Part shown: positions 2,673 through 51,420 of the stretch, in pieces
Layout: each line of letters starts with the position of its first letter
How positions within the stretch are numbered: position 1 is the first letter of the stretch
Source: Tridacna crocea
Lineage: Eukaryota; Mollusca; Bivalvia; Cardiida; Cardiidae
Length of the DNA: 64,000 nucleotides
Direction of reading: 5' to 3'
NCBI GenBank assembly: GCA_943736015.1
Contig: OX031061.1
Location: forward strand, 58,968,192-59,032,191
Notes under the pieces: model-generated
Seen by the model: the letters and a program-made list of their open reading frames with translations, nothing else
Told to the model about the DNA's origin: nothing
Database searches by the model: none
Made by a program: the position numbers and the translations under genes

Positions 2673-3498
2673 AGTCCAGAGAATCCCTTGAGAAGTTAAC
2701 AGGAACATCTACAGATATTGAAGCAGGTAATGCAATTTAAATACACTCCAAGAGACCATAACAGCTTGAACACTGGTGTCTTGCTGATTACATGTCTAAA
2801 CTGGATGTCATTTGTCCATCTGAAAAAAAAACTTATGAAGATGAAGATCAGAATGATGATGAAAAGCAATATACAGGTCCAAAAATTTCCAAAGAAAGAA
2901 ATATTGAAACTTTTTCAGCAGATAATTTTAAAGTCACATTGAAAAGTGGTATTGTAATAAAGACTAGAGCAAACCCAAGAGTTGTTCGTTATGTCAGATT
3001 TTCCAAAAAAGTAGACAAAGAGAATTATTACAGACAGAGACTGCTACTTTTTCATCCATGGAGAAATGAAAGTACAGATCTACTGGGTGCTTTTCCTGCA
3101 TATGAATCACACTATCAGACTAAAAAGAATTTCATTGATCATAAAGCAAAGGAATATGAAAAAAATATGGAACAACTGATACAGGCTCTTGAGAAAGCAG
3201 AAGATGATGTAGATTATGATGACATTGCACCGATGACAGAACAAGCAGAAGCTGATTCTATCCTAGAGGGAACTTCAGAAAGTGAGCAGTTTGTCTATTT
3301 CGACCCAGATCGTCCACATGGACATTGTCATTCTGATATAGGAAGTGATTTAGGATCTTCAGTGGCATATGTTGATATTTCAGTTAACACAAAAAGAATG
3401 TCAGATGACATGTTTAGATCTCTGGTCCAGTCATTTAATAAAAACAGTCAGAGTTCTTTCAACATGTTCTTCAGACAGCTGAGGACAAAAAAGAACCC
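2673..3498 (+). pseudogene. Helentron Rep-helicase linker segment
   Basis: After a stop and frame change near 2670-2790 the protein resumes with an LEHWCLADYMSKLDV stretch, which matches the usual segment just before the helicase. It continues with YRQRLLLFHPWRNE and a long acidic, coiled region up to 3495. Two adjacent frames near 2718-2942 and 2792-3502 overlap; the second is the real one because it contains the FHPWR block. No enzymatic motif is visible here. It joins the helicase after one more frame change at about 3499. Confidence 0.8.
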
Positions 3499-4897
3499 GT
3501 GAATCTGTTCTTAACAGGAGGTGCTGGTGTCGGTAAATCTATTCTGATATCTGTTTTGCATGAACCCCTTTTGCGACATTTATCTGCATCTGCAGGGTAT
3601 AATCCTGAGTCATGTAAAGTTCTATTATGTGGACCTACTGGTAAAGCAGCTTTTAACATTGGAGGTCAAACTGTACATTCAGCATTTCGTATTCCTGCAA
3701 GTCAAGGTTACTCATTGAAACCTTTGGACAGTGATACTTTGAATTATCTGCGAACCAAGTACAGGGATCTGTCTGTTGTCATTATAGACGAAGTATCTAT
3801 GGTGGGAAATAACATGCTGATGTTAATGAATCAACGGTTGCAGCAAATAAAAGATTGACTTTCATATTTTGGTGGTGTTCATGTGATTTTGGTGGGTGAT
3901 CTCTTTCAGTTAAAGCCAGTTATGGATGGTTGGATATTTGAAAATTAAAAAAAAAACAACTTTGGACCTCTAGCTACTAATTTATGACATGAGTTGTTTA
4001 CCATACATGAATTAACAGAAATAATGAGACAAAAAGGTGATAAGAACTTTGCAGAGGTATTGAACAGATTGCGAGAATGAAACCAAAGTGAAGAAGACAT
4101 TGAGATTTTGAAAACGAGTAAAAACACCATCAGAATTATCAAATTGGACTCATGTTACCCATCTCTTCAACACAGATTCCAGTGTAGACACTTTCAATAA
4201 TAATGCCTTTCAATCATCATCAAATCAAAAGGTAGTTGTCACAGATATTGATGAGGTAGTTGGAAATGATTCCAAAGAGACAAAACAGCAGGTTATTGCT
4301 AGAATACCGAGTGATTCTTCAAAAACAGCAGATTTGTCAAAAAAACTGGGTATTGCAGTTGGAATGACTGATGATCTTTGTGCTAATCTTGATGTGAATG
4401 ACGGACTTGCCAATGGATCTAGTTGCTGTATTAAGTTTATTGAACACAAACAAGTAAATACTGACAGAACAAGTATTGTTTGGGTGCAGTTCAGTGATGA
4501 AAAAATTGGAATGGAGTGGCGGTTCAAGTACAAACACCTTTATCACAGACCTATCAGGCAGTCTTGGACACCCATTTTTGATGTGAAGAGAAACTTTGTT
4601 TATTTACGCAAAACTTTTATCAGGATACAGCTGCCTCTTCGTCAAGCAACGGCAAAAACCATACATAAATCCAAGGGAGACGCTTTGAATGAAGTTGCGA
4701 TTGACTTGTCTGGATCTCGTGTTTTTCCACATGCACATTATGTTGCTCTCAGTAGATCTAAGTCTTTATTAGGTCTCCATTTATTGAACTTAAATGAGAA
4801 CAAAATTTCAGTTTCACAAAGGGTCAAAGAAGAAATGACCAGGTTGCGCAAAGAAAAAAACTTTGAAGCTATGTTATGTTCCATTGTACACTGTTGA
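3499..4897 (+). pseudogene. Helentron PIF1-like superfamily 1 helicase
   Basis: Helicase motifs appear in order: Walker A GGAGVGKS near the start, LCGPTGKAA, Walker B VVIIDEVSMVG, then ILVGDLFQLKPV (motif III), ELTEIMRQ (motif IV), ATAKTIHKSKG (motif V) and HYVALSRSK (motif VI). These define the PIF1/RecD-type helicase of Helitrons, which unwinds DNA 5' to 3' during rolling-circle transposition (family knowledge). The open stretches are 3499-3858 and 4334-4897. Between them are stops (such as tga near 3856 and taa near 3946) and frame changes. The two outer pieces are well preserved and the middle is worst. Confidence 0.92.
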
Positions 4898-5552
4898 AGA
4901 TGTTTTGTTGAAGGTTGTTTATTTAAATACAAGGTCATTGATACCTCATGTAAAAGAAATATTTACAGAACCAAACATTCAAGCTTCAGATTTGATTTGC
5001 CTGGTTGAAACCTGGCTGACCAGTAGAGATGCTATGGCAACAATAAATATGCCTGGATATCGATTATTCCGTGCAGATGGGTATCACAAAGGAAATGCTA
5101 TACCTCACAGAGGAATTGCTGTGTACACCAAGGAGAGTATTCATGTTTTGTGACAGAACTCACACAATGGTGAAAAAATTGAATATACTGTTACAGAGAT
5201 TTTCATTGGTACAAGAAATATTGTAATTGTAACTTTGTATATGGCCCCAGCATGTCCTCTTACATCCTTGAAAAACTTAATCAAAAAACATTTGACCCCG
5301 TTTATTTCAGGGAATGAGTTCATTATGCTTCGGGACTTTAATTCAAATGCCCTGGAGGAAAATGATGCAACCTGTAAATATATTGAAAAAGAGCTGCATT
5401 GTAACCAGATTGTACACAAACCAACCCTTGAATCTGGATCTCTCCTAGATCATGCATAATCAAATACTGAAACTGCCAAGTCGGGTGTAATTGAATGTTC
5501 ATGGTCAGACCATTCAATCATATGTTGCTTTCTACAAGATAATATAAACTGA
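4898..5552 (+). pseudogene. Helentron C-terminal EEP (AP-type) endonuclease domain
   Basis: Downstream of the helicase the reading continues with VVYLNTRSL, DLICLVETWL, a GIAVYTKES block, LRDFNSN, SLLDHA and finally WSDHSIICCF. These are the landmark motifs of the endonuclease/exonuclease/phosphatase fold in their usual order: the N of the first block, E of ETW, D and N of DFN, and the terminal SDH histidine. In Helentrons this domain is fused behind the helicase (family knowledge). A stop at about 5151, frame changes near 5230 and a stop at 5457-5459 disrupt it. The last recognisable residues end at a tga at 5550-5552. Confidence 0.88.
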
Positions 5553-6744: not shown

Positions 6745-7059
6745 TTTCGCCTGAGTCAGTGAATTTAACGGTGTCCAAACTAGAACCTTCCGGCAGAGGA
6801 AGTTTTCTACACACTTTGCGATGTACGATTATTAACGCCAATCCAGCATGCAGTGTAACATGGAATCTTCCCTATGAAGCTAATGTAATCACCAGGATAC
6901 AAAAGAGGACAAGACCAGCGGGACAAGGAGGGTATACCACTGTGTCAGAACTACTACTGAATGGAGGTATGGAAATTGATGGAAGGGAAATAGAATGTCA
7001 GCCTGTCTGTGATGTATTCGAGACGAATGATACAGCCACACTTACAATACGTATCCCAT
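6745..7059 (+). CDS. Ig-superfamily receptor, exon encoding Ig domain 1
   Basis: The exon is bounded by an acceptor (cttcttag) and a donor (cat|gtaaga), both in phase 1, the usual symmetry of single-exon Ig domains. The 105-residue product begins SPESVNLTVSKLEP and has B-strand LRCTI, a tryptophan in SVTWNL, and a second cysteine in IECQPVC followed by TATLTIRIP. Extra cysteines (ACSVTW, QPVC) could form a second disulphide. The domain would be extracellular, and the NDT sequence is a possible N-glycosylation site. An open frame continues into the intron to 7202 but lacks Ig features. The leader exon upstream is not identified. Confidence 0.75.
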
Positions 7060-7364: not shown

Positions 7365-7640
7365 ACCCGCCTACTGTGTCAATTAATACATCTCAGAGTA
7401 GCTGGAGAGCTGGGGATACAGTAATATTTGTGTGCAGTGTAAACAGTTACTCTCCGGTCAATGTCACGTGGTACACCTCACAGAACCAATCACTAGACAG
7501 CTTTGATTGCGGTGAGGGAGCTGTCTGTTTGCAGTTCCACCGAATACAGGAAGAAGATTCCGGTACTTATGTTTGTAAAGCGGCTACGGAATATTTCAAC
7601 ACGGCCATCGCATGTTTAGTATTAAATATTGCATCTACAG
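7365..7640 (+). CDS. Ig-superfamily receptor, exon encoding Ig domain 2
   Basis: Acceptor tttctcgtttcag and donor acag|gtaaga give a 276-bp phase-1/phase-1 exon. The domain has B-strand VIFVCSV, WY in NVTWYTS, and the classic EEDSGTYVCKA before the F strand, so the core disulphide and tryptophan are intact. A second cysteine pair (FDCGEGAVC) lies between the sheets. NTS, NVT and NQS are possible N-glycosylation sites. It follows Ig domain 1 in the same orientation and in matching phase. The overall architecture resembles invertebrate I-set/V-set surface receptors; no orthologue can be named. Confidence 0.88.
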
Positions 7641-8102: not shown

Positions 8103-8246
8103 CAAGAGATAGACAAATCTCTGAGAGCAGGGAGAAGACTCTTCCATGGAAATATATTGGTATCGGTGCTGCAGCGGGAGTTGTCTTTCTTGTACTAATG
8201 GTCATTTTGATGATAAAGAGAAGAAATACTGATAGACATAAAACAG
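8103..8246 (+). CDS. Ig-superfamily receptor, juxtamembrane and transmembrane exon
   Basis: Acceptor attttaccag and donor aaacag|gttggt define a 144-bp exon, again phase 1 on both sides and so in frame with the preceding Ig exon. It encodes a short polar stalk (DRQISESREKTLPWK), a hydrophobic segment of about 22 residues (IGIGAAAGVVFLVLMVILMI) and a basic stop-transfer KRRNTDRHK. This predicts a type I membrane protein with the Ig domains outside and the later exons inside. The hydrophobic segment is glycine/alanine-rich at its outer end and has no charged residue, so no built-in partner such as an ITAM adaptor is predicted. Confidence 0.85.
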
Positions 8247-8763: not shown

Positions 8764-8926
8764 GCAGTGAAGATATTCCTATGAATGCTCCTAATGTTCC
8801 TGCTACAAGCAACGAACCGAGAGATGAACAAAATGGGCAAGTTCATAGATACAGTTCACGAATTGCATTTATTGAATATTTATTTCTAAACCTTTTAACT
8901 AAAAACACAGGCTCCAATCACGGACG
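8764..8926 (+). CDS. Ig-superfamily receptor, cytoplasmic exon (3' border uncertain)
   Basis: After a clear cag acceptor (8761-8763) the phase-1 frame reads SEDIPMNAPNVPATSNEP and then RDEQNGQ, a polar, proline-containing tail without hydrophobic segments. The open frame continues to 8948. The donor at 8926/8927 (gacg|gtatag) leaves phase 2, which joins in frame to the mini-exon at 11140. The last ~80 bases are AT-rich and look intronic, so an earlier donor or an additional split is possible. No tyrosine motif is obvious in the certain part. Confidence 0.5.
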
Positions 8927-11139: not shown

Positions 11140-11165
11140 GTCCGATGCCTATGACTCCATTATTG
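11140..11165 (+). CDS. Ig-superfamily receptor, candidate 26-bp cytoplasmic mini-exon
   Basis: It lies between a strong polypyrimidine acceptor (atatttcag) and a strong donor (g|gtatgt). In the frame compatible with the neighbours (phase 2 in, phase 1 out) it encodes DAYDSII, a tyrosine with an aliphatic residue at +3, which fits an SH2-binding tail motif. The next exon then opens with VATYANADD. The assignment rests on splice sites and phase only. Other phases of this tiny exon do not join the following exon in an open frame. Confidence 0.45.
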
Positions 11166-11657: not shown

Positions 11658-11806
11658 TGGCAACCTATGCAAATGCAGATGATAGAGATAAATGTAGCGA
11701 AAACGTCAAAACTGCTGGACCTAGTTCCCTGAAAGCCGAAGCAAATGCTTCTGAGCCGGTGCCCATACCAGAGGAACAAGGTGTGGATCTAAGAGGCACT
11801 GAAACT
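11658..11806 (+). CDS. Ig-superfamily receptor, cytoplasmic exon with TYANAD motif
   Basis: Acceptor tttttatag and donor act|gtaaga bound a 149-bp exon. Only phase 1 is open, giving VATYANADDRDK and then a polar stretch rich in E, P and S ending near VDLRGTET. There is no membrane segment or cysteine-rich domain, consistent with an intracellular tail. The donor leaves phase 0, whereas the last exon needs phase 1 input. A further exon, an alternative donor or alternative splicing must therefore lie between 11806 and 14019. Confidence 0.55.
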
Positions 11807-12504: not shown

Positions 12505-12537
12505 ACCTACCGAATGCCGCTCCGTGCGATGCTGAGG
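12505..12537 (+). CDS. Ig-superfamily receptor, candidate 33-bp exon
   Basis: Flanked by gactatttcag and g|gtaaaa. Read as phase 1 to phase 1 it gives DLPNAAPCDAE and would join in frame to the terminal exon (GSGWQPG). Its input phase does not fit the donor at 11806, so its place in the transcript is unproven. Confidence 0.35.
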
Positions 12538-13945: not shown

Positions 13946-14018
13946 GCGTTAATTGTACATAATCAGTGAGACTTGATACGGAATAATTGACCGTCATTAC
14001 CTCTTATTCTATTAACAG

Positions 14019-14215
14019 GCTCAGGTTGGCAACCCGGAACCAAAGACGTTGTTTATGCTGATCTAGAACTTCAAACAGAAGGTGAAACAATTAGAATTTC
14101 CGCCGAGCCACACACCGAATATATTGTTTATGCTGATCTAGAACTTCAAACAGAAGGTGAAACAATTAGAATTTCCGCCGAGCCACACACCGAATATATG
14201 CATATGTGTAAATAG
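14019..14215 (+). CDS. Ig-superfamily receptor, terminal exon with duplicated ITIM-like motif
   Basis: After the acceptor ttctattaacag the only open phase (phase 1) reads SGWQPGTKDVVYADLELQ and later ends TEYMHMCK at a tag at 14213-14215. VVYADL fits the ITIM pattern V/I/L-x-Y-x-x-L, which when phosphorylated recruits SH2 phosphatases (established for vertebrate inhibitory receptors). The block is present twice because of a 75-bp tandem duplication (14051-14125 and 14126-14200), differing only at the last base. The two tyrosines are at 14054 and 14129. The final YMHM fits the YxxM motif for PI3-kinase SH2 domains. That this animal's receptor signals this way is inference. Confidence 0.75.
14051..14200 (+). 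repeat. 75-bp in-frame tandem duplication, two copies
   Basis: Both copies start gtttatgctgatctagaact and end gaatatat plus t (first) or g (second); every other base is the same. Each adds 25 residues including one ITIM-like tyrosine. Confidence 0.95.
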
Positions 14216-16680
14216 ACTTTAGTAAAGTTGGTGTACAACTGCCTGAACCGCCAGATATTGAATCAGAGATTATTTTCCCCCATCAGTAATATTTCGTAAT
14301 TGGGAATGTTATCTAACTTTAATTTGTAATCAAGAATTTAACGACCCTGGCGGAAATAGCTTTTGAGAACATTGTTGGAAAAGGGGAAAATGCTGGTCTC
14401 TTTTCCCACATCTTTCTCTAGTCTGGCACATGCAAAGTCTTAACACAGGAATCACATTTAATGTGTTGTTTGCAAATGCAGTCAGTATATGCGGCACCAA
14501 ATGTGCTGTTAAAAAATAGAGGAACACATGTCCTCAATTTTTATCACAAACATATTCTTTCAGTGCAAGACAATGCAAATAATGTTATTCAGTAAATAGA
14601 GTTCATTCAGTCCCAAACGATTTGGTTTGCATAGAAGATGTCAGGTAAGCGAGTATGTTGATGGTTTTCAGAGGACAAATACTGGATGTTCAGCACGATG
14701 ATATATTTGAACTGCTTTTTTGGCTGTTCCTTTGATATATCTGGGCAGTGTGCATATATGTTCAATATCATGTTCAACCCTAATTGATGGCTGAAAATTC
14801 AGTCCAATGAGACCGATTTTCATTATTGACTTAACAATTTGACACTAAAGATCTACGGCCAATTGCACATTCTATGCCTTCTGGATCTGTTTTCACCAAC
14901 CATTCTTAAAAATGTCTTAATCTTAAATATTTTCTTAACGAAATAGTTTAGGCATAAAAATACTTTCAAAGTTCAGGAAATTCTGGAGATTATGACAAAG
15001 AATTTTTCAAAGATTGGTCGGTGCATATGGACTCTGATCTTGATCTTAGCTCTCGTCAAATGTTCCTTTTTTTCCATGGTGATGAAAGGATAAAACTTTC
15101 GCAGGCGACAAGAAATAGACCTCTTATTAAAAAATTCATATGTTAACGACGACAAAATAACAGGGGAAATGTGCCTCAAGTGACGAAGATTGTGGAGTGG
15201 TAGGAGACACAATGGGAAAAAGAGAAAATGCTAAGTACATCTAGCTACGAGCAAAATTTGTGTAAGTTTTACGTAACTATAGTATAGTAGCATACATCTG
15301 CCACGATGTACGAGATAACTATAATGATGTAAACAAAAAAGACTATTGCGATGAATCAAAGTTTCTTGGAAATCTTATCTTATCATTTTATCTAAGCCAT
15401 TAGGTTTAGCCAATCAAAAGTCGTGTTACCTTGGGATGTTCGATAATAAGACACAGAAAGTTTTCAAGAATTGTCGGGTATACGGACCCTGGTAGGTGAT
15501 TCTCGTAAGAACAATATACTTTCTGTTTTTGTACTTTCCCTTGGTGAAAGTAACCATTGCGAAGAGTGCATGTGTATATGGCATTCGATACCCCTGGTGA
15601 TCCGGTGGTCCCTCGGCTGTATCCGATAGCTTGATACGCACCTACATGGTATGTTTCTTTGCCGGAAACACTCTGGTTTACCGATGTGAAAATTGTGGTT
15701 TATCAATTTCCGATTGAAGTTTTCACCGACAGATAGATAGATGTGAATAACTTCATCGAAGCTGTTTGTGTCGTTGCTACATGTAAATGACTTACAGTGG
15801 CGGGTTCATGTATAAGATCACGTGATTGGTAGTTCAGATGGAAACGTCGGTTAAACAGACGAGGTAAGATGTAGGTACAGAATCGATGAGTTGTGATGAA
15901 TGGTGTATATGGTAAACACCTGCCAAACTCAATCGAGAAGTACACAGGTCAATCTGTTTCCGGTTTTAGGATTTGTTAACTCAAGAACAGGGGAAACCGG
16001 TAAAAATATACATGAGCAATTCTTTGTGAAAAGGGGTTCTAAATCTTTTGCAAAAAGTATCGACTATTGTACGCCTGCGCAACCCGTTCAGGCTGACACT
16101 AGAAAACTTTTTGTGGCTCGTACATTTTTTGCATGTCAAAGGACTTTTCCACTTATGATTCAGTAGCTTGTTGCACAAAAAGAATCTTATGGATCCATAG
16201 TTATGTATAGTAGATAGTAATCAAATAATATTGTTGGATATGCAAAAGTGCAAATTTGAAGAGAACGCAAAAACTTATTCTATTAATCTAAGTAGAAACG
16301 TAGAGGTAAAGACAGCGTAAAAGATGTCTTCAAATCAAATCTACCGGTAAATTACTACAAAAGTCCAATAATGTGTTTCAATGACGAAGAATGTGTTGGA
16401 GAAAAGGATATTGCGGGAAAAGGAGAAAATGCCAAATTTGTGTCTGACTTTATGACATGTCCCTTTTGTAATTTTGTAGTTATGGTACTGTAATATTTTG
16501 TTGTTAATTAAGGTCTACGGTCCGTAACTCTCAAATCAAAAGACGGAAGCCAGCGAGATTGGCCGAATATCCTTGACAAAATGTTACATGACATTTACCA
16601 ATGAGTTAGCGAGTTTAAAGCCCCTCTCATAATAAAGACAAAACGACAAAATTTTGATAACCTCAAGATAACCAAAGATC
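14216..16680. other. 3' flank and spacer without recognised genes
   Basis: The first few hundred bases are the likely 3' untranslated region of the Ig receptor. Weak family B MITE relics are visible near 14330-14450 (gagaacattgttggaaaagg) and 16380-16440 (gggaaaaggagaaaatgcc). Several short open frames occur on both strands but none shows a known domain or convincing splice sites. Confidence 0.5.
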
Positions 16681-16726
16681 ACAATCTGTTGGACAAGCAA
16701 ATGATGCTAGTAAATAGACAACAATG

Positions 16727-17790
16727 GATAGTGACGTGCTGTGGCAGGGAAGGATATTCGTTGCATTCTGTGTCAGTGAGGGGGTCGTGTATTTGTCACG
16801 GTAATGTATTTTCTCTACGAATGTTTTTCAAAGTCGTTGTCTGCGCATGTCATTATTCCAAGATTCGACCTGTCTTATATCACGCATCACTCTCCCCAAA
16901 GTTTGGCGGATTGTAGTAATATGCAGTGTAAAGTAGCAATGGAAAAACGGTTTCTTATCAACACGTTAAAGGAGAAATCAGGCCTATTTTAGCTCATTAT
17001 GACTGACATTCATTTGCTGTTGCGTGTATATGTAAACATGTATGTGTTGCTAATTACAAGCAGTAGCCATTATAAGGGCAAATCTCATAAAGTCGTGTTT
17101 TATCATTAAAGAGTATCTTGTCTTTACTAGCTCTGCAATAAATACGGCTATCCAAAATGAATAGTAACGAGTTATTGCGGGGAAGGATATTCGTTGCTTT
17201 TTGTGTCAATGAAGCGGGGTGTGCATTTCTCATGGTAATATGTTTCTCTACGAAACGTGTTTCAACGTATGAACAAGTAAGCAATTTGAGAATAATTTAG
17301 CAGACCACCCACCCACCCTGGTACAAAATAACTTACGGCTCAATACCTGATTAAGGATTTTTTGAAATTACAGATGTTGGCAAATTTTTGTGGAATTACA
17401 CTTTTAGAGACTTGATGTTCGGCCAGTATTTTGAGGACCTGATGTCGTTTTTACAAGTTGAAACCCTTCAGAAAATCATAAAAAAATTATAAAAAGTAAA
17501 AAGTTTTTTAAGCCTTCTTCTGTTTCCCAAGGAAGACTTTACCATGTTTTTTTTTTGTTACCTGTTATTTGTATTATGTTTGCGAATAATTTGTAGCTTA
17601 TTTGGGGCTTTTGGGCTTTTTGGGGCTAGCTATTGACATTTGAGCAACCTGTTACGACTGACATTCATTTGTTGGTTATAAATGTTTTGTGTATATGTGA
17701 AGATGTATGTATTGCTGTTACAAGCCGCAGTCATTCTAAGGGCAAACCTCATTAAATCGTGCTTTATCTTTAAAGATTCTTTTGTTTCGA
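16727..17790 (+). repeat. Two pairs of diverged direct repeats, offset arrangement
   Basis: 16727-16838 matches 17160-17265 (shared gggaaggatattcgttgc, tttctctacgaa). 16995-17130 matches 17650-17790 (shared gactgacattcatttg, tacaag.cgcagt-like, aagggcaaa.ctcat). The order within the duplicated block is kept, pointing to an old local duplication of ~450-650 bp. A T-rich stretch without features separates them. Confidence 0.6.
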
Positions 17791-18931
17791 CTTCATCCCG
17801 AATAACCAGTATATTCTATCTTTACCAGTATGTTAAGTATACTTTCCCAGCCAAACAACAAATTTTCAGCTACTCTTAAAATGTCATCTGCAAAAGTTTT
17901 AATGTAGAAGGCCCTATTTTTTTCTTTTGGAAAGGATTTTGTAAATTGTTACCAAGATGGAAAACATTATGGAAAAGTAAAAAATTGTTGAATACCAGTA
18001 TTTTCTCCTCTTCCATCAATGCTTTCAAAAGTCTCTTCCTAAAGATTTTTAAGGTTAGTACTTGGATCTAAAAGGCCCAGGTTTTCACTGAAAAGAATAT
18101 TTCTAAAAACTCGTTACTCTCTCACTAAATTGTCTTTGGGACAAAATGGTAATTTACTTTCAAGAAATAAATCATCTCATAGTACAATTACCGTTTTAAA
18201 CCTATCATAATTGAATGCATTTCTAGGCTAGAACTGTTTATTTGGCCTAAATGTTGAACCCTGTCTTTAACCCGTTACCATACCTTTCCAAATGCTGTTT
18301 TAACAAGCCTGAGAAATAGTCCATTTAACTTATTGTTCGAAAAGGAGAAACTTTCTTGATTTTTAACACAAAGAAAAAAACTTCAGATTTGCCAAAATTG
18401 AATGCATTTTCGGACAACAATTTAGGCTTGGTTTCATCGATGGAACCTGTCTAGAATAGAATAAAAGAGAAAGAAAAGAGAGGAAAAAAAGAAAGTGTCA
18501 GCACAAAATTCACATTTTCCTACGAAAAGTTTATAAGCCTTCTACCTACAACTGTATAGGCTTTTAAACATCATTTTTGTGTTCTAAAGGACTAAATCTT
18601 AGTTTCTACACAATGCAAAAACATATACTGGTAAGTCGATACACTTTGCCATCATTTAAAAAATGCCATTCAAAACTGGTCTTCTTTGCACATATACATT
18701 GCACAATCCTATACACTTTGCTGTATCAGGACAGGCGATTAAAACTGAAGGAAAATGTAATTATTTTAAGATAATTCTAAAGTCGACTTCCAACGGCACT
18801 TTCAGTACTTTGAGTCCATTGCGCAGTTAGGCATTATGGGTGCTACACCTTTGAGTTTTCTATTACGAGTATTTCAGTAAAAAATGGTAAAAGCTCAAAT
18901 CGGGCCATGTCAGAGTTCTTTCTCCACTTGC
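17791..18931. other. Spacer with eroded family B MITE pieces
   Basis: Relics of palindromic MITE cores are visible around 17875-18060 (gaaaacattatggaaaag ... ccagtattttctcctcttcc) and at about 18270-18330 (ttaacccgttaccatacc). A purine-rich stretch (agaaaagagaggaaaa) lies at about 18455-18495. No gene is recognised. Confidence 0.45.
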
Positions 18932-19500
18932 TTAACCCTTCACTTCATAGATACTCGTTTCTACGCACTGCTTGTAGGAGCCTTTGGAAAACATTGTCAC
19001 GAGCAATTTCACCTTTTGTCACAATGTTTTCTACGCTATCAAAAGTTGTCATATACAGATAAAAAATTGCTTCATCCAGGCTGTTTTTTTCGGGTCAATC
19101 AGAGATGCCATAGAAATGCCTTGTAGGGTAAAGGGTTAAAGTGCGTTATACGTTATTTGTCCCTGTTCACTTTATAACTTCAGTCTTTTATAGCATAAAC
19201 ACACATGTTTTTGCATCGTCTAAGTTCTTTTTGTGGTTTAGATTTTCGCCATACTGGACCGTGCAGAGGAGACTGGCCCAACAGCTCAGCTACAAATCAT
19301 TAGACATGTGAACATCAATTCTCCGGCCACTTAGGAGTGCGGGTTCAATGCCCAAGGCTGACCAGCCATAATTACAAGAAAGTTTTTTTGCATGATACAC
19401 TAAAACTTATTCCGGTTTGATGATGCTATACACTGAGCACGATATAAAGCCAGGCGTGAGTAAGGATGTGTTTCATCTACAATTATCTTTTATCCTGAAT
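18860..19500 (+). mobile_element. tRNA-related SINE 1, copy 1, split by a MITE
   Basis: The segment shares its order and sequence with 28270-28720. The core has A-box-like agctcagct (about 19282) and B-box-like gggttcaatgcc (about 19341), followed by caaggctg and a variable tail. These boxes are the internal RNA polymerase III promoter of tRNA-derived SINEs (established). Copy 1 is interrupted by a family A MITE at 18932-19139 that copy 2 lacks. The 5' part upstream of the tRNA region (tgtttttgcatcgt, cgccatactgga) is also shared, so the unit is longer than a simple SINE. Confidence 0.65.
18932..19139. mobile_element. Palindromic TTAA MITE, family A, copy 2
   Basis: TTAA-bounded, starting cccttcacttcatagatac and ending ccttgtagggtaaaggg. 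One arm of the central foldback is partly deleted. It is inserted in SINE 1 copy 1. The uninterrupted copy at 28270-28720 has ctaa where this copy has TTAA, MITE, TTAA, which supports a 4-bp TTAA duplication. Confidence 0.85.
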
Positions 19501-19743
19501 TCGGGATTTCGGGAGTATTACCTGCAAACATTTTTGTTTTAAATACGGTGACGATGTCGGTTTGTGCTTTTCCAGATTTTCTTTTTACCTTTTCAAAGGC
19601 AAATCTTATTTTATTCTACCGCAAAGAAATCTCTCTTGATCTGATTGGATAAATGCCCTGAACATTTATATCATGTATACTGGCAAAACCAATGTTTCCC
19701 TTTCGAAGTGCCCGTATACTTAATTGCTCTATCAACACAACAT

Positions 19744-19850
19744 CCAAAATGGCGGCGTCGATCAAGATATGCATCAAGATAATGCGCCCAGCTGACGTTT
19801 TAGCACGTATTGCCAAGATTCAGTGACGTCAGTTCCCAATGACGTCAGTT
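19744..19850. promoter_or_regulatory. Possible promoter: YY1-type site plus two CRE sites
   Basis: caaaatggcggcg at about 19743-19755 matches the YY1 core found near animal transcription starts. Two perfect CRE palindromes tgacgtca lie at 19824-19831 and 19840-19847, 16 bp apart, in a duplicated gtcagtt context. Binding and activity are inference. The gene served, if any, is uncertain. Confidence 0.4.
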
Positions 19851-19985
19851 TTAATTGAACTGGGACATTCAGACGGGAAATTCTATTTCGTCAGCCTACT
19901 CAGTTTTTAAAGCTAAGAGCAGGTAAAATTCGCTGAACAAAAGTTTAAATGGGAAAACTTTGTAGTACAACAAATTCGTTGTACG

Positions 19986-20110
19986 GTCAGGTGGCAGGGG
20001 AAACTTGTTCACTGCTGTAGTTAACCATGCCGTCAGCTCGTCTTCGGTTCGGGGCGACATGAATCACCACAACCTTGAACAATTGTCCAAGTCCCTGCCA
20101 CCTGACCATC
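19986..20110 (+). repeat. Short inverted repeat, 15-bp arms
   Basis: ggtcaggtggcaggg near 19986 is the inverse of ccctgccacctgacc near 20095. Between them is the sequence containing the weak open frame MNHHNLEQLSK, starting at 20059. The arms are too short and lack a clear target duplication, so a transposon is not demonstrated. Confidence 0.5.
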
Positions 20111-20189
20111 AAAATAATAATGTAAATCCAATTGAGTTCACTGGTATACTATCTGTAGATGTCTTTGAAATGGTCCGATCTTCAATTTC

Positions 20190-20408
20190 TTCTTGTGGTG
20201 AAGGGTTTACATGGCTTAGTGGTAAACTGTAGGTATCTTAAACTAGAAATTCTGGGTTCGAGCCTCAGTGTACCTATCGGATTTTTAAGGGAATGCCACT
20301 TCAGACACTTTAGAGCTTTGGTTACTGGTGAAACCCAGATTAAACATGAATATGTAGATTGTTGCCTTAATAATGCTTGAAGTAGTGTTAAAAGTCGCAA
20401 AACCCCAT
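20190..20408 (+). mobile_element. tRNA-derived SINE 2, plus-strand copy
   Basis: A-box tggcttagtggt (about 20213-20224) and B-box gggttcgagcct are correctly spaced for a tRNA-derived polymerase III promoter. The body (cactttagagctttgg, actggtgaaaccca) is shared with minus-strand copies at about 29935-30140 and, in part, 26440-26560. Its 3' side runs directly into a family B MITE at 20409. Confidence 0.65.
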
Positions 20409-20686
20409 TTAACTCTTAACCAGGTGACAAAGTTTGACAAACAGACTTGATTCAAAAAGTAAACGTCTTTGGAGGAGAGAAATACGTTGTGGGTGCAGAA
20501 GAAAATGCTGCTTAAAACACCGAGAAAGGAAGAGAAAAATGCTGGTTCCCGGTATTTTTCCATTTACCGGCACAATTTTGTTTTCCGTCATAGACAAATT
20601 GCTTCGTTTGAGCCACATGTATTTTCTCCAGTGCAAATATTTTAATTTTGACAAGTCTTTAATTTTATCGTGTGGTAAAGAGTTAA
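20409..20686. mobile_element. Palindromic TTAA MITE, family B, diverged copy
   Basis: Ends are TTAACTCTTAACCAGGTGAC and tcgtgtggtaaagagTTAA. The foldback core (agaaaaatgctggttcccgg) is eroded. Family B elements typically read ttaaccctttaccacacaat ... gagaaaatgctggtaaccag ... cattttctcc ... gtctgcaaatgctttcaatt ... ggtaaagagttaa. Confidence 0.7.
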
Positions 20687-21384
20687 CAATGGTTAACAAC
20701 TGCTATTCATGTCTGCTATTTTAGAGTTTCTATGATTCTAGTCTTCTATCATAACGGTGTTATACAGCTTCTATGTCTCTATATCGCTATTTTAACAGTG
20801 TTTTACATTTTATCTCGCGATGCACCCGAGGTGCTTTTATGAGATCATTTGGTCTTGGAAGGGACAGGTGTGAAATAGTAGAAATAGTGTTTTTTTGAAA
20901 AAAAGAACAATTTTACATTGAAGAAAGAAATGGGACATCGAATCTCTCTCCATAAGGGAGGGGATCTCTTTTTTTTGCCCAGTGTAAGGCTTTCATGTAT
21001 TCTAGAAATGCAGGATTCATTGACGACTTACAAAACTTCCGCACGGGTTTGTCCATTTTAAAAAGGAGACACATAGACACCTTTACAGTGTTTTAAGAAT
21101 AATATTTTGTTTCACTTTACTTCTGGATGTCTTTATTCCTTGCAGCATATTGATTGAATTGAACGACTGAAAAACACTGAAATTGTGTCTTAATTTTGAA
21201 CGTACAGGTGTTTTATTCCCTCATTGAACATCAAACGCAAAGCCCTGGAAACCCATTTACAGAGGACAAATCCTGAAAATGATTCAAATTCAACTTTACC
21301 TTTTCATTTCAAACTGATACACGGAAATTCCAATTTCTAACTTGTGCAAAATCAGAAGTTCACCGTTTTTAGTTTGTTGGCGGA
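20687..21384. other. Spacer between SINE/MITE and Ngaro element
   Basis: AT-rich with short homopolymers. No gene, terminal repeat or split direct repeat of the Ngaro element was recognised, though its 3' terminal repeats may lie here. Confidence 0.4.
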
Positions 21385-21557
21385 ATCAGGCCACAGCTCC
21401 CAAAACTGCTCAAACAGTTGAGCCCTGGTGACAGAGACTCAAAAACTGCAAAGTCCATATTAGGTTTGAAACTGTCAGTAACTGTAATGAACTGCAACAG
21501 ACAAATTCCGATGGAGGTATTCTCCGCCACATGGCGAAGCCAACCGCCACCAGAATC

Positions 21558-22180
21558 TTAGAAAGTGCGGCCTGATGCACCATTGTCTGGATAAACTTTT
21601 CCATTGTTTGAGGTAAATTTGTTTAAACCCAGCTTGATATTTCCTAACAACAACATGTTTCCTCTATCTGACAGATGCTCCCCATCATCCAAAAAAGATA
21701 AACTATCTTTCTCTAGAATTTCGCGATATCGTAAATACTTCTCTCCTAAACCCAAAATAAAAGACGCAATCGCATTGTTGACCGTCTTCCTAACTCTTTC
21801 CACGGCCATGTGATTCATTTCTCCTCTCCAGCATACTCTGGGGAGGATTTGTGATCAGACGATAACACAGCCAGGGAAAAGATCCACAATCCGACCGACA
21901 TCCTTTTAATACATTCAATTAATGCAGTCGCTAATTGCCGTCCAATATCGTTTCCCCCACAATGAAAAATTAAAAAATCTGCCCTTCTTGAATAGTTGAC
22001 AGATGTTTCAATAAAGGTACTAATTGTTTCCATCGCAGGCCTCTTCTTCCTTGCCAAAAGATTTCTACTTCGTCTTCCAACCCAAGCTGTGAACCATTCC
22101 TACTGCAACCTCTGGCACAGCAAAAAGCCCTCTTTATTATGGACGAGCCAACAATCCAGACTAGGAATCGATGACATGTA
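21558..22180 (-). pseudogene. SGNH/GDSL hydrolase-like domain of the Ngaro element
   Basis: Reading on the minus strand from about 22170: VGSSI (block I, GDS-like serine), a WQGRRGLRW-type block, LIFHCGGNDIG (block III with the GxND asparagine) and finally DDGEHLSDRGN (block V, D-x-x-H). These four landmarks define the SGNH esterase fold. The domain is spread over at least three frames with stops, so it is a pseudogene. Such domains occur behind the recombinase in Ngaro elements of fish and invertebrates; their role in transposition is unknown. No toxin or host gene is implied. Confidence 0.75.
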
Positions 22181-22186
22181 AAAGAG

Positions 22187-23114
22187 TTAAGACCACTTTC
22201 AGGCAGTGCCTAAAGCAGGAAATTGGTATGAAATAAACTAATTCAAAGCTAGTGTCTCAGATGGAACTCTAATGTATGACTTAAAAGCACCAGAGTTCCA
22301 TCTACAAAAAAACCTTTATGCTTGCTTCGGACATGCCTCTCGAAAAAGTAATAGTGGCTGCTCCAATTCAAAGAGAGTGCCCCTTATAATTCGATGTCTG
22401 CCTCCCAAGTGCCTGAATTGACTTTTCTAAGACAGCTCCAAACTGATATCTTGTCAAGGGCATTTCATTCAAATGACAAAAAAGGTAACTACTCTTCAAA
22501 AACTTTCTTATCTCTAAATACTGCTTCTAATGTGAAACTGGGCATGTTGCTTTACCAGTCTTAGGAACTGATATAATAATTCCCTGGCCATTTTGATCAG
22601 TTTTTGATGATCCTAGATATATTTTTATACCTGAATTGTCAAATTCTATAGCAACATTCTCCTTTCTAATGGCATGTCCCCCACTATTCAAGCTGGAGAC
22701 AACAACTCTGAAAAATCCCAAAAATACAACTGTAAAGACTGCACTACAAAGCTTTGTATCATAAACTGAGTAACATACCATCGGTAAAATTGCAAGTATT
22801 TTACAAAGCATATCATGAGTAATAGGCAGTCTTGAATCAACTCTTTTGTGAACTTTAGAATAGCCATTCAACATTCTAGAATCAATAAAATTTGACGTTG
22901 TGTCTTTGAGACCTTTAATTTTGCACGAGAAAGCCAACCCTGATATACCGGTATATGATCTAGCTGTGGCTGGTGACATGTCTTTAAGTGACATAAATGC
23001 TATGAATTCTGAGATAACTTCAAGCGGCGGAGGCCAAATATCTTCAAGACCTTTTTGCACCCGAAATTCCACAAAAAGCTTTAAGGCAGATTCATATGCT
23101 GCTTTGGTAATCAT
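22187..23114 (-). pseudogene. Tyrosine recombinase of the Ngaro element
   Basis: The N-terminal half is a 195-residue open stretch (22527-23114) with the phage-integrase-like SAM-type helices (MSPATARSYTGISGLAF) and the first catalytic arginine in LGFFRVVV. After a stop at 22527-22529 the C-terminal half continues: TRYQFGAVLEKS, then HSL-stop-IGAAT where the HxxR arginine is expected. The stop is TGA at 22368-22370 and is one C-to-T change from CGA. Then in a shifted frame RWNSGAFKSY carries the nucleophilic tyrosine. The enzyme would integrate the element's circular DNA copy (family knowledge). With these lesions it is inactive. Confidence 0.82.
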
Positions 23115-23361
23115 TGAAATACTGTGATCAATTAAGAAATTGACTTCAGACTGTAAATCATGTGATGAAAAGAAACTGGAATTTCTTGCCCATGCTTCTG
23201 GGGCTGCCTCTCTAAAGCGCTGCCACTGACAACAAGAGAGAGAGACAAACAGCGAGAGTCTGCTTTAACATTAAACTTCCTTTAACATGAATTGCCTTAA
23301 ACTGAATGTTTTAATGCATACATATCAAAATAAGTGGACGTATCAAGTGCATCACAGGTTT

Positions 23362-24110
23362 TTATTTGGAAGTTTTCTTATTTAAGATGACTACAAGTGC
23401 CTGATTATCTATGTGTAGGATTATCTCCTTTTTCTTCAAACAAAGGCCCCAAACCATAAACGCCAAAACCACTGGGACTAGTTCCAAAAAAGTAATGTCT
23501 CTTAGCAAATGTAACTCATACCACTCCTTTGGCAACGGATAAAAAACCTTACTGCAACCAAATACAGCAGCACAACCCAAATCTGGGGAACCAGCACTAT
23601 CTGTGAAAGGATCCAGGGATGAAATACTTAACCAGTTCACTTCTGGAAAACTGCAGTAACCATTAAAGTGTTCTAGAAATGAAATACAGGTGCAAACATC
23701 TGCTTTCATAGGTGCTGATAACCTAACATGGTGAAAAGGTTGAACCAAACCTGCCATTGCGTCATAAAAACGCCTGTTGAAGGCCCGGGCTACAGGTATA
23801 GCCCTCGTGGAAAAATTCAATAAACCAACAAGCAACTGAAGTTCTTTAAGAATAACCTTTTTCTTGGTGAGAAACTTCAACATGGTTGATTTTAATTTGC
23901 TTATTTTTTCCATGGGGATTTGAATTTGAAACAAAACAGAATTAAGTTCCAGACCAAGAAAGACAAGCAGCACTTTTGGTCTTATAGTCTTATCATCAGC
24001 AAGGGGGATTCCCAATGCTGTACATAGATGTTCAAAATTGATCATTGTCTCAAGACAATTGTTTGTAAACTTTTTACCAAGAAATATCAAATCATCTAGA
24101 TGTGGTATAA
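23362..24110 (-). pseudogene. RT catalytic box, thumb and RNase H of the Ngaro element
   Basis: The reading begins just upstream of the LDD catalytic box (24091-24099; seen as HLDDLIFLG, where tyrosine is usual before LDD) and continues for 242 residues. FLGLELNS and a thumb-like stretch lead into RNase H, with its acidic residues in PFTDSAG, ELVPVVLAF and HIDNQALV. The piece ends in NKKTSK at a stop, as DIRS-type RT-RNase H proteins often do before the recombinase. It is separated from the fingers/palm piece by a frame change and stops at about 24110-24130. Confidence 0.85.
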
Positions 24111-24802
24111 ATTACTACCAGGGTGAAGAAAATTCAGTAACCATTCCAGAAAAGTTTTTCCCACAAAGCACAAGAAATTGCACAACCCATGGGCAGCATT
24201 TTGTCAACAAAGTATTTGCCTTGGAGACGAAAACCGAACAGAGAAAGATCTTCCTTGCGAACAGGTATCAACCTAAAGCCACTCTTGATATCCATTTTTC
24301 CCATTAGACAGTCATGCCCTAGATGAACTATTGAATCCACAACCTCATCGATAGAGGTATAGCGAACAGAGCATAGGCTAGGAACAATAAAATCATAGAT
24401 ACTTTCACCTGATGGGTACAGAATGTGGTGTATTAAACGCCATGTATTATCCTTTTTGGGAACCAAACCAATGCGAGAAAGCTTAAGATTATCAAATGGG
24501 CATGTATCAAAAGGCCCAGCTATCCTTCCACGAGAGACCTCCTTCATTACTCTCTCCCAAGCAATCTGAGGATTTTCCTTAACAGACAAAGGGTTATCGC
24601 AGACACAACTGGTTCTTGGACCTTCAAAATGCAAATCAAAACAATTGACAAAACCATCAGCTAAAATTGCAGCATCTTCAGTCAAAGTATACTGCTTTAG
24701 ATAATCCATCAACAAATCCACATAAAATGGAGTAGACCCCAATGACTTCAAATCAGTGTTGCAGCGATTGGAACCTTCTTGATGTTGATGAACCCTGCTC
24801 AA
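24111..24802 (-). pseudogene. Reverse transcriptase fingers/palm of the Ngaro element
   Basis: 222 open residues. GRIAGPFDTCPFDNLKLS then RIGLVPKK and WRLIHHILYPSG form the fingers of DIRS/Ngaro-type RT. GKMDIKSGFRLIPV is motif A with the first catalytic aspartate, and MLPMGCAISCALWEKL is motif B. The start overlaps the end of gag by ~50 bp in a different frame, an arrangement compatible with frameshift or re-initiation, although degeneration makes that uncertain. The catalytic LDD follows in the next frame downstream. Confidence 0.87.
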
Positions 24803-25694
24803 ATGGTACCCTGGGCTGTTGATAGGATGACCTAAAAGGTAATTTAGATTTATTATTTGAAATTAGGCAGGTTTTATATGGGTGGCTACCCCCACAACGG
24901 AGACATTTATGAGCATAAATGCAAGCTTTTCTTTGACAACTACCTTTATAATTATAGTCATAACAGTGCAACTGAGTAGGCTCAGGGTACAATAAGGGTT
25001 TCGGTCTACACATAAAAAGTAACCATAATTCCTGATTAACTTCGCCCCAAGACATGTCACTAGACTGTGACTTCTTTAAACGAATCTGCTCGTCATACGC
25101 TAACCAGCCATGCACTGGATAATGCTTAGCTCCTAACCGTATAATGTGCATATGCTTCAACATATTACGATACTGTTCAGGGTGAACATTACAATAAATA
25201 CCCATGTATATAATAAGTGCATCACTCCATGACTCAATGTTTAAAATCCGTTTATTGGTTTTAGGCAAAAGCCTAATTTGGCCATTGGAATCTAAGCTCT
25301 AAAATTGCCCTGAATTATCTATCGGCATTAACAGATTTGCAAAGTTAACGTATTCCCCATTAAGAACCTTTTGTTTAAGGTTTGCTGGAACTTGAGAAGA
25401 AATACCTCTACTTGGCTGCTGTACATGTATCTCACCTGACACTCCAACAGAGGGAGCTGTAAAGATGGCCTGGTTTTCAACAACTGGTGCTGGTATAAGT
25501 GGGGCATGCTGATCCGGTCTGGATGCTTTCAAAGGCGGGTTTCCGTGGGTTGCCCGGTGACTGGCCTGAGATGACCTTGTTCTTTTCCGTTCTTTTGGCA
25601 TTTGAACAGTCAATGAAGATAGCAAACTGAAATTAACAGGTGCAGTGAAACATAATTTGTAACCAATATGAATTAACCTGTAGTGTAACAACAT
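24753..25694 (-). pseudogene. Gag-like protein with CCCH and CCHC zinc fingers, one internal stop
   Basis: Two open stretches (25299-25694 and 24753-25268) are in the same frame, separated mainly by one TAG at 25299-25301, so gag was a single ORF of ~310 residues. The N-terminal part is basic and proline-rich (PKERKRTRSSQ). The middle has a helical region with LKHMHIIRLGAKH and VHGWLAYDEQIR. The C-terminal part has C-x8-C-x4-C-x3-H followed directly by C-x2-C-x3-H-x4-C (CLRCGGSHPYKTC), a CCCH finger and a knuckle. These features are typical of DIRS/Ngaro gag; RNA binding is expected. The start is the ATG at 25694 or one further in (PKERK). Confidence 0.75.
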
Positions 25695-39739: not shown

Positions 39740-41690
39740 TATTTCCTTGCTACTGACCACAACTAGGGGTGGGTATAACAATCCCAATGCTTGGGTTCCT
39801 GAGGGGTCAGTATAGATAATATGGTCATGTTTGTGATTTTTTTCCCAGGCTTTGAAAAACCAAAGTCTTTGGCTCGTGATACTGCCCAAAAAAAACTTAC
39901 TGTTTTGATTATCACTAATATCTACTGTATAGAATAAACCATAGGATTACGTGTCACAATCCCAGTAAAGGGGCTCAAGAGGGTTCGGTGAATGATAACG
40001 CTTTACATGTATTTGCAACTTTTCCACAGGGATAGAAAACAAAACAAATTCTTGTGTCTGGTGGTACTGCCCCAATATAGCTTATTGTTTTTATTACCCT
40101 TGATATCTACTGCAATTAAGGGGCTTCAAAGATACATGTAGATGTCGCAATCCCAATAATCCCAATAAATTGGCCCCCTAAGGGATAGGTCAAGAAGAAA
40201 TTTTGTGTGTCTTGTAGTACTGCCCCAATGACGCTTACTGTTTTGATAATCGCTAATAGCTACTGTATATAATAAGCTTTAGTGGTAGGTGTCACAATCT
40301 CAATAAAGGGGCTCCAGAGGGGTCGGCAAATGTTTCTGTTGACTTTCTAATAAATCCTTCAGAAAAAGAAACATAAAACAAACTTGTGTCTGGTGGTACT
40401 GCCCCACTGCAGCTCATTGTTCTTATTATCCCTGATATCCCGTGGAAATAATGGGTTACAAGGGAAGGTGTCACAATCCCAATGAGAGGGGCTGGTCATT
40501 AAACTCCTTAAAACTTTGCCTCAGATTCAGAATAAAAAAAAATCTGGTGTCTTGTGCTACTGCCCTAGTAAGGCTTATTATTTTTATTATCCCTGATATG
40601 CACTGTAAATTAAAAGCTGTTAAGATAGGTGTCACAATCCCTTAAAAGGGACTGCAGAAAGGTTGGTCAATAATTACCTTTTATCTGTGATTTTTATCTA
40701 ATGGATAAAAAGAAAAGAAAAAAAATGTGTCTGGTGGTACTGCCTCACTGAAGCTTACTGTTTTTATAATCCAAAATATCCACTGTACGCAATGCACAAC
40801 TGGGATAGGTGTCACAATCCCAATGAATTGGCCCAAGAGGGTTCGCTCATTAACAGCATCAAATTTGTTATTTTTTCCTGAGGTATATTGGAAATTTAAG
40901 AAAAATCATGTGTCTGGTGGTACTGCCCCACCCAATCATACTGCCTTTATTATCCTTGATATCTACTGTAAATAATGGATCATAGGGGTGGGTGTCACAA
41001 ACCCAATGGAGGGGCCTAAGAGGGGCTGATCAATAAGTATGTTAAATTTGTCTTGTAGCCTCAGGAATGCAATAAAGAAGGAAAAAAAAAACATATTGTG
41101 TCTGATGGTACAGTCCCTCTACAGCTTATCGTTTTTATTATCCTCACTATCCACTGTAAATAATGGACTACAGGAGCAGGTGTCATATTTGTTATCCCTG
41201 ATACCCACTCTAAAAAATGGGGTATAGGAGTAGGTGTCACAATACCAATGAAGGGGCCCTGAAGGGGCTGGTCAATAAGTATGTTAAATTTGTCTAGTTG
41301 CCTCATGAATGCAGAAACAAAGGGAAAAAAATCCTGTATCTGGTGGTACTGCCCCAATTACGCTTAGTATATTTTTCATCCCTGATAAACACTGTAAATA
41401 AAAATCTTTATGGGTTGGGTCACAATCCCTTAAAAGGGGCTTCAGAGGGGTCGGTCAAAAATTGTGTTTTATCTGCGATTTTTTCCGCTGGGATTGAAAA
41501 AGAAAAAAAATAGTGTGTCTTATGGTAATGCCCCACTAAGGGTTATTGTTTTTATTATCCTCAATGTCCACTGTAAACAATGGACTACAGGGGTAGGTGT
41601 CACAATCCCAAGAAATGGGCCAAAGCGGGGTCAATCAATAATAACATCAAATTTGTTTATTTGCCTCAATGACAAAAATATATAAGAAAA
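39740..41690 (+). repeat. Satellite array, left diverged zone
   Basis: Monomers of about 160-190 bp recognisable by ggtactgcccca, tatccactgtaaa-like and ggtgtcacaatcccaat landmarks. Units here differ much more from each other than those after 41690, and trimer order is not regular. Confidence 0.85.
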
Positions 41691-50600: not shown

Positions 50601-50730
50601 CCTGATATCCACTGCAAAAACTGGGATGTAGGAGTAGATGTCACAATCCCAATGAAGGGGCCTTAAAGGGACTGGTCAATAAGTAAGTTAATGTTGCCAT
50701 GTTGCCTCAGGAATGGAAAACAAAACAAAA
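41690..50730 (+). repeat. Satellite array, higher-order trimers of ~545 bp
   Basis: Three monomer types (~181 bp each) alternate. Type 1 follows ggtactgccccactcaatct (cttattgcatttgttatccc), type 2 begins aattaagcttagtatat, and type 3 begins actaaggcttattgtcttta. About 17 trimers are seen, the type-1 mark recurring near 41715, 42259, 42801, 43468, 44018, 44570, 45112, 45656 and so on to 50576. All share gtaggtgtcacaatccc. Open frames on both strands within it are by-products of the repeat. Confidence 0.93.
45880..49261 (+). repeat. 1641-bp tandem duplication inside the satellite
   Basis: Sequence from about 45880-47620 recurs nearly base for base at an offset of ~1641 bp (three trimers). For example, the block at 46097 recurs at 47738, 46701 at 48341 and 47248 at 48889. 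Only scattered differences are seen, such as a short deletion near 48040. Confidence 0.9.
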
Positions 50731-51420
50731 TCTTGTGTCTGATGGTACTGCCCCACAGAACCTTAGTGCTTTATGATCCTTGATAACCACTGTAAGGAAT
50801 AGCCTCTAGGCTAAGGTGTCACAATCCCACTTAAGGGCCACCAGAGTGTTTGTCATTATAACGTCATATTTGTCATGTTCCATGGGGAAAGAAAATTGAT
50901 ACAATAGAAAATAAAATTTGTGTCTCAAGGTATTGTCCAACTGAAGCTTATTATTTTAATTAATCAAACAACAATTTTCAAGTGGAAATGCCTCACTTAA
51001 CTATAGTTAACCATGCAAACTACAGTAATATTGAGCGATAAGGGTAGGTTTCACTGTCGGTACTCCTCTGAAAAAGACCGACCAGAGATTGTTTTATGCC
51101 AATTTATGTATTTTAATATTACATCACTGATGGTAAGAAAAAGTGACTTTCCAGTGACAGGCGGTATTGTGAATTTTGGGCTATTACAGTAAGTGATATA
51201 ATCTGCATATAGGAGCCTTAGAGAGTCATTTCAATTGTTTGTAGTGTTGTATCACAGATAGAAATAATAATATTAATAATATACATACCTATGACAGCAA
51301 GTTTTGTTCCTCTGAAGCTTCTGGGCAGAGTTAAATGCGATAACTACTGCAAAATTTGCACTTTAGGGGTAGTTATGGGCGATATTGGTAGGTGTCGTAA
51401 TACCTATGTATTCACGCGCA
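50730..51420 (+). repeat. Satellite array, right diverged zone
   Basis: One clear diverged monomer (50740-50930, gatggtactgccccacagaa) is followed by increasingly faint ones (gggtaggtttcactgtcggt near 51040, ttggtaggtgtcgtaatacc near 51390). Confidence 0.75.

Follow-up and report, generated by a model that had tools for sequence, protein, structure and literature searches.

A locus-specific 75-bp tandem duplication in a clustered immunoglobulin receptor gene of Tridacna crocea and its proposed route to a two-ITIM tail

The terminal exon of an immunoglobulin (Ig) receptor gene in Tridacna crocea raises the question of whether an inhibitory-type cytoplasmic tail has gained a second signalling site through an in-frame tandem duplication, and by which steps. 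The stretch of DNA analysed, hereafter the window, covers 64,000 nucleotides (C6:58968192-59032191) of a 1.05-Gb assembly of 31 contigs. The reading that we favour, at a probability of roughly 0.55, is that a locus-specific 75-bp tandem duplication in one of about 21 clustered receptors yielded a two-ITIM tail by ordered steps. We place high confidence in the sequence history and low confidence in the function.

The duplicated unit and the gene that carries it

The tandem duplication in the window sequence is real. As predicted for the terminal exon, TRF reported a 75-bp unit doubled head to tail at 14049-14199 (100% match, 2.0 copies), and self-comparison gave 76 consecutive identities at offset 75 within the same interval. 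The two copies had been described as differing at one of 75 bases; they are in fact identical, with 0/75 differences. The duplication lies in an open frame (13991-14215) whose translation is VVYADLELQTEGETIRISAEPHTEYI / VYADLELQTEGETIRISAEPHTEYMHMCK, then stop. The frame closing at 14215 reads ...KDVVYADLELQTEGETIRISAEPHTEYIVYADLELQTEGETIRISAEPHTEYMHMCK and stop, and the terminal exon of the window gene closes with TEYMHMCK: the YMHM motif claimed for the protein end is present, but the frame runs two residues beyond it. Each unit carries two tyrosines, in VYADL and in TEY, and both VVYADL and IVYADL, encoded behind the transmembrane exon, match the ITIM consensus ([ILVS]xYxx[ILV] in a cytoplasmic tail). 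The expected gain of a whole signalling tyrosine was thus borne out, as the duplication adds a strict ITIM; the count of one tyrosine per copy was not, as two are added, one of them an ITIM. The features of the window are as follows.

6745..7059, + strand: membrane-proximal Ig-like domain exon (C2-set-like), open, flanked by splice-like ends; homologous to 17 further exons in the cluster
7365..7640, + strand: last Ig domain exon (I-set); Pfam Ig_3 E=1.1e-11 and I-set E=1.1e-9, above cut-off
8103..8246, + strand: transmembrane exon with splice-like ends, among the 21 cluster matches of a paralogue's transmembrane exon
8764..8836, + strand: cytoplasmic exon C1, GC donor assumed; conserved in paralogues
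11140..11165, + strand: cytoplasmic exon C2 (26 bp), splice ends kept in 7/7 aligned genes
11658..11806, + strand: cytoplasmic exon C3 (149 bp), exon and donor conserved in the cluster
12505..12537, + strand: possible optional exon (33 bp), weakly supported; ends look splice-like in the window, P585 and P600 but not in P601
13400..22747, no strand assigned: stretch shared with the paralogue at C6:58.547 Mb, 96.4-100% identical per 300-bp chunk
14019..14215, + strand: terminal coding exon with stop codon, AG acceptor in 8/8 aligned genes
14049..14123, + strand: copy 1 of the duplication unit, VYADL ITIM then TEYIVY (TRF and offset identity)
14124..14198, + strand: copy 2 of the duplication unit, IVYADL ITIM then TEYMHM (TRF and offset identity)
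14199..14215, + strand: frameshifted end, 8 bp longer than in full-tail paralogues

That the exon forms the tail of an Ig receptor was likewise upheld, with Ig_3 and I-set above cut-off and a transmembrane exon present. In the joined two-Ig protein, the Pfam families Ig_3, I-set, ig, Ig_2 and C2-set_2 all scored above cut-off, the C2-set_2 match covering stretch 22-85; exon 6745..7059 scanned alone stayed below cut-off for this family (19.5 versus 21 bits). These profile matches place the predicted product in the immunoglobulin superfamily. By sequence, the best-matching solved chains include titin, SYG-2, MDGA1, CADM4 and the poliovirus receptor, matches that would say only that Ig-like domains are present. 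For the tail itself, Pfam yielded nothing above cut-off (SIT scored highest, 18.2 versus 27.6 bits), and no solved chain matched at E up to 10. Four more open stretches 5' of the window (about C6:58954583-58961213) are homologous to Ig-like exons of the paralogue P5960; scanned singly, three were without a Pfam match and the fourth matched C2-set below threshold, so that they are labelled Ig-like by look and place. A signal-peptide exon was not located for the window gene.

Several repeats lie in the window. A Helitron-like element in pieces (1607-1960 and 3442-3855; Helitron_like_N 1.2e-18, PIF1 6.6e-12) sits in a receptor-gene intron, between the 5' exons to the left of the window and exon 6745-7059; the frames beside it (4112-4894 and 4839-5150) gave no profile match. 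On the minus strand, 22527-25694 holds retrotransposon-like open frames, one with a sub-threshold RVT_1 match (28.5 bits, cut-off 29.6) and a second scanned frame with no reverse transcriptase match; we take the order of these frames to be DIRS-like. A satellite of ~183-bp units (~52 copies, 67% matches) forms two arrays at 41186-43095 and 43198-50837.

The window gene belongs to a cluster. The genome matches the transmembrane exon of one paralogue at 21 places, the window's included, all on the + strand of C6:58.468-60.180 Mb, and the membrane-proximal Ig exon at 19, of which 18 fall on the + strand of the cluster span and one, weak, lies elsewhere on C6. Terminal exons occupy 20 distinct places (21 rows, one exon being split in two), which with L002, the terminal exon of the P585 locus, makes 21; all these counts are lower bounds. 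As transmembrane and terminal exons alternate along the contig, they delineate some 21 Ig receptor genes arrayed head to tail on one strand (C6:58.47-60.20 Mb), most with an ITIM tail. No terminal exon was found for the transmembrane exon at 59362672, and the terminal exon at 58738207 is partial. Three members, P589, P5960 and P5966, are near-identical recent copies (98-99%). By its letters P600 is a decaying gene: its C3 donor is broken (AT for GT), its last Ig exon holds stops and its tail is frameshifted (L011, L031, L032). P585 looks damaged, its last Ig exon containing stops and the membrane-proximal Ig exon having no match in the 20 kb searched. The P600 locus also holds a 147-bp two-copy tandem duplication at 99% identity (L032 3065-3356, on C6). 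Elsewhere in the assembly, COX1 was located at G000:C31:26516-27850 (L041), beyond 26 kb on its contig, and read with code 5; we take the frame upstream of it to be ND1-like and the large mitochondrial genome to be bivalve-like.

Ancestral tail, frameshift and age of the duplication

Comparison with paralogues had been proposed as a way to establish the ancestral copy number, and it points to one copy. Terminal-exon letters were compared for 14 of the 21 genes (the window and 13 others, one of them partial), and all 13 others are single-copy; the remaining seven have a 78-aa open frame, the same as single-copy members of their type, two of them with an internal stop. The junction of the two copies, searched as an exact 30-base pattern on both strands, occurs once in the 1.05-Gb genome. 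When 274,000 bases (the window and 21 10-kb stretches from the cluster) were scanned for tandem duplications with units of 24-300 bp, the window duplication was the sole exact full-copy one with a unit above 33 bp. At a unit of at least 20 bp, fewer than 4 copies and at least 95% match, nine near-exact arrays were found in these 274 kb, 14049-14199 among them; three are a single 31-bp repeat seen in as many paralogues, and another has a unit of 147 bp (99%). Such events are therefore not rare here, and one duplication falling in frame in a tail exon is noteworthy, though not beyond chance after the fact. The original prediction of a single slippage step did not survive comparison of the letters: direct repeats were not found at the ends of the 75-bp unit, which have 1 bp in common. 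This end homology fits break-and-rejoin or template switch better than slippage between repeats.

The full tails (P601, P587, P594, the P586 type and the P589 type) have three tyrosine sites: (i) VYADL, VYAEL or VYTDL, (ii) TEYVSI, TEYVST, TEYLST or NEYMSI, and (iii) at the end, IYANQ, IYSNQ, IYVNQ or MYVNQ. In one of them, L016 (RVYTDL), the -2 residue departs from the strict ITIM. Across seven aligned tails, all from paralogues of the window gene, V12, Y13, L16, E34 and Y35 do not vary. The window and L002, and only these two among the 14, are 8 bp longer than P589-type tails, right after the second tyrosine. The extra 8 bp shift the frame into a stop, giving TEYMYMCK in L002 and TEYMHMCK in the window, and the former distal tail is recognisable behind that stop in the window (IIFPHQ for IIYANQ). 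In P600 the 8 bp are missing, and a frameshift and a stop disrupt the tail. On this comparison of letters, the YxxM end is not ancestral and stems from an 8-bp frameshift common to the window and its nearest paralogue.

The relation between these two loci was examined along the gene. The window and P585, 435 kb away, are 99.28% identical over 14124-17441 and 98.63% over 17435-22747, with ~4 kb of extra sequence in P585 opposite 17.44 kb, between the two aligned stretches. High identity begins at ~13.4 kb, in the last intron, and its 3' edge is the end of the compared stretch. From 11.3 to 13.4 kb the identity is ~91-95%, no higher than to P600, and the Ig region of the window gene is nearer to P589-type genes than to P585. 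This pattern indicates that the terminal exon and 3' flank were recently common to the two loci, shared through segmental duplication or exchange. Copy identity was taken at first as a sign of a very recent duplication or of gene conversion. By arithmetic, ~0.5 differences are expected in 75 bp at 0.7% divergence, and 0/75 has a probability of ~0.6 if the duplication is as old as the split from P585. Identity of the copies as such does not demonstrate that the duplication is much younger than this sharing between loci, conversion is unnecessary as its cause, and on these figures the copies do not date the duplication below the 0.7-1.4% divergence from P585.

We infer the order of events by parsimony. 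The ancestral tail would have held three sites, VYADL as the ITIM, the ITSM-like TEYVSI and, distally, IYxNQ. In the common ancestor of the window and P585 tails, a length change of 8 bp would then have shifted the frame, truncating the tail after the second tyrosine site, so that the ITSM-like motif and the third tyrosine were lost, and creating the YMxM end. After the loci parted, a 75-bp stretch of the window copy would have been doubled, its ends having 1 bp in common, leaving a tail with two strict ITIMs, whose tyrosines are 25 residues apart in the sequence, and TEYMHM.

Reading frame of the terminal exon and rival readings

Translated joins show how the ITIMs depend on splicing. Inclusion of C3 (11658-11806) puts the terminal exon in a frame that gives AQVGNPEPKTLFMLI and stop, with no ITIM and an early end; with C2 (11140-11165) joined directly to it, the terminal exon gives ...DAYDSIIGSGWQPGTKDVVYADL..., in the ITIM frame. 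Among six cytoplasmic joins and one shifted donor, the ITIM frame appeared in the three joins that omit C3 (C2-tail, C2-33bp-tail and TM-tail) and with the shifted donor, a weaker C3 donor 10 bp downstream. By these predicted joins, the ITIM form must have C3 skipped or use the weaker donor. A single model joining all eight visible exons was rejected, as the terminal exon drops out of frame. In P601, C3 and the terminal exon join in frame, and P587 and P594 (L018 letters) have the same tail phase; relative to P601, the window, P585, P600, P589, P5960 and P5966 lack one base at the start of the terminal exon. In the one P586-type gene examined, C3 had no match in 20 kb, and C2 and tail (L015) fit in phase like the window C2-to-tail join, letters being read by eye. 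We regard C3 skipping as the likeliest route to the ITIM form. Constraint on the paralogue tail frame seems only moderate: dN/dS is 0.32-0.82 in 8 of 9 pairs and 1.55 in the ninth, the pairs being drawn from paralogues, with the window tail outside them.

A tail that is neutral or decaying would account for the same letters, and we consider this possible, at less than an even chance. The main transcript would keep C3 and stop early, and the duplication, lying effectless behind the stop, would persist by drift, the cluster being fast-changing. Apart from P600, the genes of the cluster keep C3 and its GTAAGA donor, yet the window terminal exon is out of phase with C3, and the one-base shortening is found in five further genes. 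The defects of P585 and P600 and the nine near-exact arrays in 274 kb point the same way. Against it stand the P586-type gene, in which C3 is absent and the C2-to-tail phase is that of the window, and the tails of P589, P5960 and P5966, which, in the ITIM frame, run open as far as the ancestral stop, though these genes are recent copies of one another. Every located exon of the window gene is open as well.

An error of assembly or sequencing, with the genome really single-copy at 14049-14199, is very improbable. The sequence comes from one haplotype and from the assembly alone; the unit, however, is shorter than any usual read, the contig is 65.7 Mb long, and the window differs from single-copy P585 at 14035, 14037 and 14201, so that its copy is not a mis-joined piece of that paralogue. 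Somewhat less remote, and still unlikely, is an older duplication, either held identical by conversion between the copies or ancestral and lost in P585. The window-P585 tract, whether exchanged or duplicated, is recent and at least 9 kb long, so exchange between loci is active here; such a history nevertheless takes two steps against one, 0/13 other compared tails are double, and the identity is expected anyway. The favoured reading, a duplication specific to the window locus, can be extended into a fuller account, in which an inhibitory tail was rebuilt stepwise: loss of the ITSM-like and distal tyrosine sites by frameshift, exchange of the truncated tail exon with an edge in the last intron, a 75-bp duplication restoring a two-site phosphatase dock at 25-residue spacing, and C3 skipping deciding whether the protein has the ITIMs. 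We hold this extension to be doubtful, a little more so than the neutral tail.

Predicted signalling and known systems

Motifs of YxxM type bind p85, and by sequence TEYMHM in the window and TEYMYM in L002 conform to this pattern. The ITSM of PD-1 and SLAM type reads TxYxx[VI]; in the window tail TEYIVY and TEYMHM both fail it, and an ITSM-like TEYVSI is found in the paralogues P601, P587 and P594. As for a partner, C17:1121334-1133118 encodes on one strand, in order, SH2, SH2 and a short phosphatase piece (profile 40-82 of 234), the first SH2 being split into two pieces, of which one contains a stop within the stretch examined; this locus is a candidate SHP/corkscrew-type phosphatase gene. 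In published work, SHP2 activation is reported to depend on the spacing between two linked phosphotyrosines (PMC10231330), the PD-1 ITIM and ITSM tyrosines are Y223 and Y248, and a PD-1 ITIM-ITSM peptide needed ~1000-fold higher concentration than a doubled ITSM to activate SHP-2 (PMC7078208). Two sites at a 25-residue spacing thus need not suffice.

By analogy, the doubled ITIM at this spacing would suit a tandem-SH2 phosphatase. Ligand engagement would lead to phosphorylation of both ITIMs, which would dock both SH2 domains of an SHP/corkscrew-type phosphatase; the single-ITIM sister tail would dock it less well, and the terminal YMHM may bind PI3-kinase p85. Expression, splicing in the ITIM frame, phosphorylation, binding and polymorphism are what we infer here. 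If the exon is spliced in frame, L002 and the window allow one inhibitory site to be compared with two, a single natural step apart and on nearly the same tail; a three-tyrosine tail is present in the same cluster, and the one-ITIM tail of L002 is the natural one-site control, though the P585 gene looks damaged. Under the same condition, the evolution of signal strength in an inhibitory receptor would become testable outside vertebrates. The array of some 21 receptor genes, with its near-identical recent duplicates, is a candidate locus for immunity or recognition.

Tandem clusters of Ig receptors that differ in their number of ITIMs are already known, and ITIM-like tails occur in the Hydractinia allorecognition complex. 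Vertebrate ITIM/ITSM receptors (the PD-1 type tail; LILRB, CEACAM1, Siglec) likewise combine an Ig ectodomain, a single transmembrane segment and an ITIM tail, and paralogues of the window gene also have a TxYxxI site some 20-25 residues past the ITIM. The window tail differs: in place of ITIM and ITSM it carries a pair of identical ITIMs plus a YxxM. Homology of the tail to vertebrate receptors was not found among solved chains or above the Pfam cut-off for SIT. In the open-access literature, as far as titles and the starts of abstracts go, neither the cluster nor a tandemly duplicated mollusc ITIM is described among the matches listed. Closer in phylum, and likened by description only, are two oyster proteins. 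According to the review PMC11999971, CgIgIT2 is also a mollusc multi-Ig receptor with a tyrosine-motif tail (five Ig domains, a transmembrane segment and a tyrosine-based motif); it differs in that the motif is an ITAM and activates ERK. CgSiglec-1, named a Siglec homologue in PMC5877582, is also a bivalve Ig-domain protein, the ITIMs there being given for mammalian Siglecs. The Hydractinia allorecognition complex, with 41 Alr genes according to PMC11999971, is likewise an invertebrate Ig superfamily family gathered in one complex, in a different phylum and again compared by description only. Next to these systems, what is new here is the particular variant, together with the readable order of its steps.
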